64,000 nucleotides of DNA. Source: a bacterium. Its GTDB lineage: Bacteria; Pseudomonadota; Alphaproteobacteria; Acetobacterales; Acetobacteraceae. This document shows positions 61,542-63,309 of the stretch, one piece after another. Positions within the stretch are counted from its first letter, which is position 1. Every line of letters begins with the position of its first letter. The stretch is from contig JAMFRO010000084.1 in the NCBI GenBank assembly GCA_026224825.1, positions 124,001 to 188,000 on the forward strand, in the 5' to 3' direction. Below the pieces are notes generated by a model that saw only the letters and a list, made by a program, of their open reading frames with translations, was not told where the DNA came from and did no database searches. A program made the translations under genes and the position numbers.

Positions 61542-61615
61542 GGTCCGGTGGCAGAGTGGTGATGTAGCGGACTGCAAATCCGCGTATGTGGGTTCGATTC
61601 CCGCCCGGACCTCCA
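61542..61615 (+). tRNA. tRNA-Cys(GCA)
   Basis: GGTCCGGTGGCAGAGTGGTGATGTAGCGGACTGCAAATCCGCGTATGTGGGTTCGATTCCCGCCCGGACCTCCA: paired acceptor stem, CTGCAAA anticodon loop, GGTTCGATTCC T arm, encoded CCA. Confidence 0.96.
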
Positions 61616-61857
61616 GCCCCCGCCCGGCAGGGCAGCCGGGGCTTCCTGAAATTATCGGCTTGCATAGCCACGGCGTCCGCGCGGGGACTCTTGTACTCGC
61701 CCCAAAACACTACCAGATCATTGAATATATCTGGTTTTACCTGCGTTGCAGAATAAAGCTCTAAGGATTGATGACCAACCCGTTCTACCGGAAGTAAACC
61801 TGAGCAAGCGTGCCGCAACTCTCGCGCCCGTTGCCCCCAACCGGAGTCACCGACACC

Positions 61858-62052
61858 ATGTTCGCCCAGTTACACTATGTATTATGCCGGGTCTTCTATG
61901 TATTATGCCGGGTCTTCAAGGACCGCCGCGCCGTCACGGCAATCGAATACGCGCTGATAGCCGCGCTAATCGCCGTCGTCATTGTCGGCGCCGCCACCCA
62001 ACTCGGCACACACGTCAGCGCCACCTTCAATAAAGTCAGCAGCGAGCTTTAA
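61858..62052 (+). CDS. Flp/Fap-type (type IVb) pilin with a tandem heptapeptide repeat in its leader
   Basis: FKDRRAVTAIEYALIAALIAVVIVGAATQLG matches Flp pilins; leader YVLCRVFYVLCRVF. Confidence 0.9.
   Translation: MFAQLHYVLCRVFYVLCRVFKDRRAVTAIEYALIAALIAVVIVGAATQLGTHVSATFNKVSSEL
61876..61917. repeat. Perfect 21-bp tandem duplication inside the pilin gene
   Basis: TATGTATTATGCCGGGTCTTC twice in succession. Confidence 0.97.
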
Positions 62053-62074
62053 GGCGCCACCTTCCACCCAAGCT

Positions 62075-62132
62075 GGTGATATAGCGGATTGCAAATCCGC
62101 GTATGTGGGTTCGATTCCCGCCCGGACCTCCA
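62075..62132 (+). repeat. 3' tRNA-Cys fragment, att-like direct repeat of 61558-61615
   Basis: GGTGATATAGCGGATTGCAAATCCGCGTATGTGGGTTCGATTCCCGCCCGGACCTCCA; 48-bp identity (62090-62137 vs 61573-61620) continuing into GCCCC. Confidence 0.93.
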
Positions 62133-62271
62133 GCCCCTCATTCGCAGATGATCGCCCCCGGCCGCAAAGCCAGGGAAAGCAAGGGTTTTTGGCGCTCGCT
62201 TGTCCTTGAAGAGTCGCTCTGAACCGCCTATATCCGCCTTCTCAGTGTGGGTGCGAACGAAGGTTTGGAGG

Positions 62272-62988
62272 ATGGCCAGAACCACGGCAAAATTGGCAGC
62301 AATCAAGGTCACAGCGGTCCTGAAAGCTGGTGACAAGCGAAGCTATGCTGACGGTGGAAATTTATATCTGCAAGTGACCGGATCTGGGACGGGATCGTGG
62401 CTTTTTCGCTACGCTGAAAAAGGCAGTGGGGTGAAAGGCAGCAAGCCTCGGACGCACTGGCTAGGGCTTGGATCCGCCAATACGGTCAGCCTTTCACTTG
62501 CCCGGGAAAAGGCAAAGACACTCCGCGCGGAAATTCTTGCGGGTATCGACCCTGCCGCAAAACGCCAGGAGGCAAAAACTGCGCCCCAAGGGGCACTGAC
62601 CTTCGCTGAAGTTGCTGACCTATATATTTCAGCGCAGGAACCAGGTTGGAGCAGCGCCATACATGCTCGGCAATGGCGCTCTAGCCTACGTGACTACGCG
62701 ACTCCAATTCTTGGCCCCCTCCCCGTCTCGAACGTCGAGACGGGTCATGTGATCCAGGTGCTCGAACCGATTTGGGTTATAAAAACCGAAACTGCATCCC
62801 GCGTGCGCCAACGAATCGAGGCGATTCTGGATTATGCCAAGAGCCGCGGATGGCGAAGCGGCGAGAACCCGGCGCGATGGAAAGGCCATCTATCGAACCT
62901 CCTTGTCGCAAAAGAACGCATTGCCCCGGTGAAACACCACCCTGCTTTGGACTGGCAAAAGGTTCCTGACTTTGGTCCAACCCCCTAG
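62272..62988 (+). pseudogene. P4-type tyrosine integrase, truncated 3' by an IS insertion
   Basis: N-terminal arm-binding domain (YADGGNLYLQVTGSGTGSWLFRY...HWLGLGSANTVSLSLAREKAKTLRAEILAGIDP) and core-binding region; ends before catalytic R..HxxR..Y residues. Confidence 0.9.
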
Positions 62989-63030: not shown

Positions 63031-63309
63031 ATGCCGAGACGGATTTACAAACCTGAGGAGATTATTGCGAAGCTTCGGCAGGTTGAGGTTTTGACCTCGC
63101 AAGGCAAGTCGGCTGTCGACGCGATCCGGTCGATTGGTGTGACGGACGCCACGTACTACCGGTGGCGCCAGGAGTATGGCGGGCTGAAGATTGGCCAGGT
63201 GAAGCGCATGAAGGAATTGGAAGCTGAGAATGCGCGGTTGCGGCGTGCGGTGTCGGATTTGACGCTGGAGAAGCTGGTCTTGAAGGAAGTGGCTTCGGGA
63301 AAGTTTTGA
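63031..63309 (+). CDS. IS3-family transposase OrfA (HTH)
   Basis: MPRRIYKPEEIIAKLRQVEVLTSQGKSAVDAIRSIGVTDATYYRWRQEYGG...LRRAVSDLTLEKLVLKE. Confidence 0.93.
   Translation: MPRRIYKPEEIIAKLRQVEVLTSQGKSAVDAIRSIGVTDATYYRWRQEYGGLKIGQVKRMKELEAENARLRRAVSDLTLEKLVLKEVASGKF

Follow-up and report, generated by a model that had tools for sequence, protein, structure and literature searches.

The question raised by this locus is how a tRNA-Cys gene came to be followed, on the same strand, by a partial copy of itself, with a pilin gene between the two and an integrase gene beyond. An earlier note on this DNA had read the arrangement as tandem att sites left by successive integrations, the pilin segment being a mini-island or a remnant of one. 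The stretch analyzed (the window, 64,000 nucleotides) is C22:124001-188000 of an Acidocella draft genome (G000; 4.27 Mb, 108 contigs), and close matches of its host are to Acidocella; contig C22 itself extends past the window, to 201401. As relatives we compared 27 other Acidocella genomes with at least 500 bp of sequence behind tRNA-Cys. Overall, this is a mobile-element site of an ordinary type, whose one odd detail is the sequence into which the element appears to have inserted.

ARAGORN calls only one tRNA gene in the window, the complete tRNA-Cys(GCA) already recognized in the note, at 61542-61615 on the forward strand, where it adjoins an opposite-strand PCMT gene in an arrangement conserved genus-wide. 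Nucleotides 16-74 of this tRNA together with the following GCCCC (61557-61620) recur as a 64-bp direct repeat at 62074-62137 on the same strand, with 2 mismatches (97% identity). The 48 bp of identity described earlier lie exactly where they had been placed and form the exact block inside this longer repeat; the tRNA 3' fragment given as 62075-62132 is likewise real, although its start is 62074, and the interval quoted as ~460 bp measures about 453 bp between the 64-bp copies (61621-62073). The chance expectation for the repeat core in L003 is 0.00 matches (200 shuffles), and a 43-bp probe has exactly two matches genome-wide, both at this locus. Repeat alignment thus delimits a truncated tRNA-Cys copy of 59 nt (62074-62132, forward strand) that differs from the intact tRNA at 2 of 59 sites and is not called as a tRNA by ARAGORN. 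It is non-functional as a tRNA gene, most likely served as the attB of the element beyond it, and now forms that island's left, integrase-side att junction. On its upstream side, where CCACCCAAGC meets TGGTG, there is no homology with the 5' part of the tRNA. The fragment is absent from all 27 relatives, with or without an island. A foreign source for it was considered and rejected: the 43-nt fragment-specific sequence has no match among viral contigs, and the region, searched against plasmids, gave no DNA match.

The integrase that the note had placed beyond the second copy is indeed there, but as a truncated tyrosine integrase gene (62272-62972, forward strand) in which the Arm-DNA-bind_3 (PF13356, 64.6 bits) and Phage_int_M (PF22022, 103.5 bits) domains are present and the Phage_integrase catalytic domain (PF00589) is missing. 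Its frame is broken at 62972/62973 by an IS3-family insertion sequence on the same strand, which runs from 62973 through the window's last position, 64000 (orfA 63031-63309, orfB from 63306), and has the ends TGGTCCA...TGGACCA, the right one lying outside the window at C22:188221 (L003:8221). The bases at its two ends (CTT and GTC) do not match as a target duplication, and an IS-associated deletion is the likely cause of the missing catalytic part. With that part lost to the insertion, the island would be unable to move by itself. Completion of the integrase behind the insertion sequence was rejected, the next gene there being unrelated. Elsewhere, one partial catalytic-domain match was found, on contig C24, in a 208-amino acid ORF (L250, 1456-2082) covering positions 79-168 of PF00589; the ORF seems to fuse transposase-like sequence with the C-terminal part of a tyrosine recombinase, and it is at most a candidate for the integrase's missing part. 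Nor were the genes behind the insertion sequence accepted as proven island cargo, since their homologues are scattered over other contigs of the relatives, at roughly 65-75% identity.

A distal att copy, for which the earlier note had suggested extending the contig, was not found on the stretch of C22 scanned but was located on contig C33. A tolerant probe detected no third tRNA-Cys copy on C22 up to 199000, only the two known ones, and a distal att on that contig was accordingly rejected. The last 14 nt of the tRNA (CGCCCGGACCTCCA) have one further exact copy in the genome, at C33:109570-109583 (minus strand), which leaves 560 bp to the end of that contig. These 14 bp of tRNA 3' end lie within a 19-bp att core, CGCCCGGACCTCCAGCCCC, whose left copy is at 62119-62137 on the forward strand and whose right copy is at G000:C33:109565-109583 on the minus strand. 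By motif comparison, AGTGTGGGTNCG, a putative integrase arm-type site at 62244-62255 (forward strand), accompanies both att copies, toward the integrase at the left end and toward the island on C33; it also occurs in the sister species G014 and is absent elsewhere in 253 loci. Beyond the att, C33 carries a methyltransferase and a regulator, collinear at 72% with another sister species, G021, where the two genes follow tRNA-Cys at a distance of about 2-3.5 kb and in the same orientation. The shared core, the motif on the island side and the tRNA-Cys right flank beyond together identify the C33 site as the distal att; as the draft is in 108 contigs, the link between C22 and C33 is one that we infer. 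The island side of this att (L105, G000:C33, 9756-10142) holds the end of an ORF at the contig edge that by eye resembles an old-yellow-enzyme-type oxidoreductase.

Thus the att core sits at a tRNA 3' end on C22 and its distal repeat sits beside chromosomal flank on C33. An integrase behind tRNA-Cys is missing in 26 of the 27 relatives, the sole carrier being G014, where this integrase region comes immediately after an intact tRNA-Cys and no pilin separates them. This region is 91.5% identical between the two genomes over 648 bp as against about 80% for the neighboring chromosome, which fits a mobile element acquired separately in both species. The G014 integrase (L107, G014:C75, about 77-126) is also cut off near a contig end, its frame turning to unrelated sequence. 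The distal att and the related element on an intact tRNA-Cys bear out the earlier proposal that a larger, tRNA-targeting element starts at about 62.1 kb.

The segment between the two tRNA copies does contain the Flp-type pilin ORF that had been noted (pilin1, 61858-62052, forward strand), which scores 61.6 bits against PF04964, for which the curated cut-off is 32.2 bits. A repeat search and translation revealed an in-frame 21-bp tandem duplication in its leader (61875-61916, forward strand; YVLCRVF twice), which lengthens the prepilin leader. Nine of the 27 relatives have a Flp pilin on the strand of tRNA-Cys, 80-332 bp behind it. Mapped on the PCMT gene tree, where the pairing is clustered, with G014 scored positive via a syntenic pilin on its contig C114, the trait requires 5 changes against about 9 when shuffled, and 2 of 500 shuffles are equally low. 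That G014 pilin, placed in the tRNA-Cys right flank by synteny, is also the nearest sequence to pilin1. The pairing occurs in one part of the genus (e.g. L111, L113, L115, L116, L117 and L124). One of the nine (G034; L110, G034:C5, 3430-3978) has two tandem Flp pilin genes directly behind tRNA-Cys, and the stretch examined there has neither an island nor a tRNA fragment beside them. That an orphan Flp pilin so regularly accompanies tRNA-Cys in Acidocella is a minor new finding. The recurrence suggests that the pilin is an old neighbor of tRNA-Cys and not likely to be island cargo; most likely, the pilin between the tRNA copies is a chromosomal gene of the site.

This bears directly on the mini-island, by which the pilin segment would be a very small element between att sites, or what is left of a larger one, separately integrated in tandem with the island. 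The geometry of intact tRNA, short segment and tRNA 3' fragment fits this reading, as does G014, where tRNA and integrase adjoin without the pilin segment, and there are reports of att repeats, 46-49 bp long, whose sequence is that of tRNA 3' ends (PMC11476347). Against it, a same-strand pilin linked to tRNA-Cys recurs in the relatives, clustered on the PCMT gene tree. The segment (61621-62074) has no TGTGGGT-like arm-type motif, whereas both island ends carry one, and it has no integrase gene. The core used by the integrase itself measures 19 bp and not 48-59 bp, and the reconstructed repeat, instead of being limited to tRNA-derived sequence, takes in a further 15 bp of native flank; an attP does not normally carry native flank beyond the tRNA end. 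The relatives, named in the earlier note as the place to look, give a divided answer in that the pilin recurs without an island whereas the second tRNA fragment is seen in this genome alone. With the fragment missing from every relative, and long att repeats being known, integrase-mediated insertion of the segment keeps a small share of the probability, and we consider it quite improbable. A related reading, in which the 517-bp unit of tRNA 3' end and pilin is a minimal integrase-less cassette moved in trans by tRNA-Cys-targeting integrases, appears very improbable; if true, it would mean that orphan pilin genes are shuffled at the Acidocella tRNA-Cys site.

What the island's insertion site had looked like can be approached by joining the two island ends at the core. 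Over 74 bp the joined sequence is a copy of the tRNA-Cys site with 2 mismatches, and these 74 bp take in 15 bp outside the tRNA that are identical to GCCCCCGCCCGGCAG, the flank downstream of the intact gene (61616-61630, forward strand), which recurs at the island's far end on C33; the tRNA site and attR have a 29-bp exact block, CGCCCGGACCTCCAGCCCCCGCCCGGCAG, in common. Since the joined ends recreate a tRNA-Cys site, a second tRNA-Cys 3' end with its native flank, followed by a second pilin gene (pilin2, on C33), would have pre-dated the island, and the reconstructed pre-island site is, as judged from its sequence, the signature of a duplication. The distal att keeps just 14 bp of tRNA, so the island's attP is most likely not what supplied the longer stretch of tRNA in the second copy.

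These data favor a two-step history, which we regard as the best explanation and as probable. First, recombination would have doubled a unit made up of tRNA-Cys nt 16-74, the 15 bp of downstream flank and the pilin gene, to give the order tRNA-Cys, flank, pilin1, truncated tRNA-Cys, flank, pilin2, MTDT orf and methyltransferase. Second, and with good support, an island with an arm-type-domain tyrosine integrase would have entered the 3' end of the truncated tRNA via the 19-bp core, which left the real tRNA-Cys untouched and would have parted pilin1 (contig C22) from pilin2 (contig C33). Later, the IS3-family insertion, probably with a deletion, would have taken the catalytic part from the integrase. 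No other genome examined has the duplicated site, be it with the island or without it.

The first step is the less simple of the two. The best match of pilin2 is pilin1 (73%), and the dS between them is 0.53, against 0.70 and 0.88 when the G014 pilin is the partner, a weak difference over 41 codons only. The full pilin tree groups pilin2 apart from pilin1, and a joint pilin1-pilin2 grouping is not rejected (p-AU 0.21); with 138 columns the pilin trees are too short to decide the origin of pilin2. Divergence between the pilins is about 27%, and the similarity of the spacers is not significant after the first 15 bp, so spacer homology failed as proof of one tandem duplication and a simple tandem duplication became less favored. 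One old duplication in tandem leaves the near-identical tRNA and flank unexplained beside diverged pilins and spacers unless there was later gene conversion. The data would be reconciled if gene conversion had acted on the tRNA part, or if a diverged pilin allele had been captured through homologous recombination on one side.

The same contrast between young tRNA and flank repeats and diverged pilins with unrelated spacers would also be explained if the island had first entered the real tRNA-Cys, the arrangement seen in G014, and homologous recombination with a related strain's DNA had later added the flank, pilin1 and fragment. The incoming piece would then have one homologous and one illegitimate end, in line with the junction of CCACCCAAGC and TGGTG being unlike the 5' part of the tRNA, and homology-facilitated illegitimate recombination is documented in bacteria (PMC3240628). 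Such a piece would have had to end precisely at the border of tRNA and integrase, no donor sequence is known, and the genomes compared do not separate this order of events from the two-step history; we hold it to be unlikely. A misjoin in the assembly, of strain variants tRNA-pilin and tRNA-integrase within their common tRNA sequence, might be suspected in a draft of 108 contigs with an exact repeat of 48 bp. Misjoined normal alleles would not yield the truncation of the fragment at nt 16, the novel junction or its two private substitutions, and the contig continues for another 15 kb, which makes an artifact highly unlikely.

On the two-step history, what looks like a tandem att pair needs no second integration: the duplicated piece of the tRNA takes up the island as attB, and the real gene is spared. 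This is a caution for tools that call islands by tRNA-fragment repeats alone. The pilin itself resembles the Flp/Fap (type IVb) pilins of Tad systems, including the others of the same genome, in its PF04964 domain and EYALIAALIAV core, and differs from them as a lone pilin gene at tRNA-Cys, with no other pilus genes in the segment, and in the 21-bp duplication of its leader.

tRNA gene fragments are common beside islands, and the Acidocella case belongs with the known islands of this kind, its attB being unusual. It shares with tRNA-targeting islands that carry arm-type (DUF4102/P4-like) tyrosine integrases an integrase gene beside the tRNA 3' end, an att core at that 3' end with a distal att repeat, putative arm-type motifs at both ends and a tRNA left intact. 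Unlike those islands, it has for attB a truncated tRNA duplicate behind a pilin gene, and its integrase is broken by an IS3-family element. A close parallel is the tRNA-Cys-GCA pair around a ~121-kb genomic island in Pseudomonas fluorescens SBW25 (PMC9897764), where again an intact Cys-GCA gene and a low-scoring partial copy accompany an island at tRNA-Cys. The SBW25 copies flank their island, whereas both Acidocella copies lie on one side of theirs and the true distal att keeps 14 bp of the tRNA.
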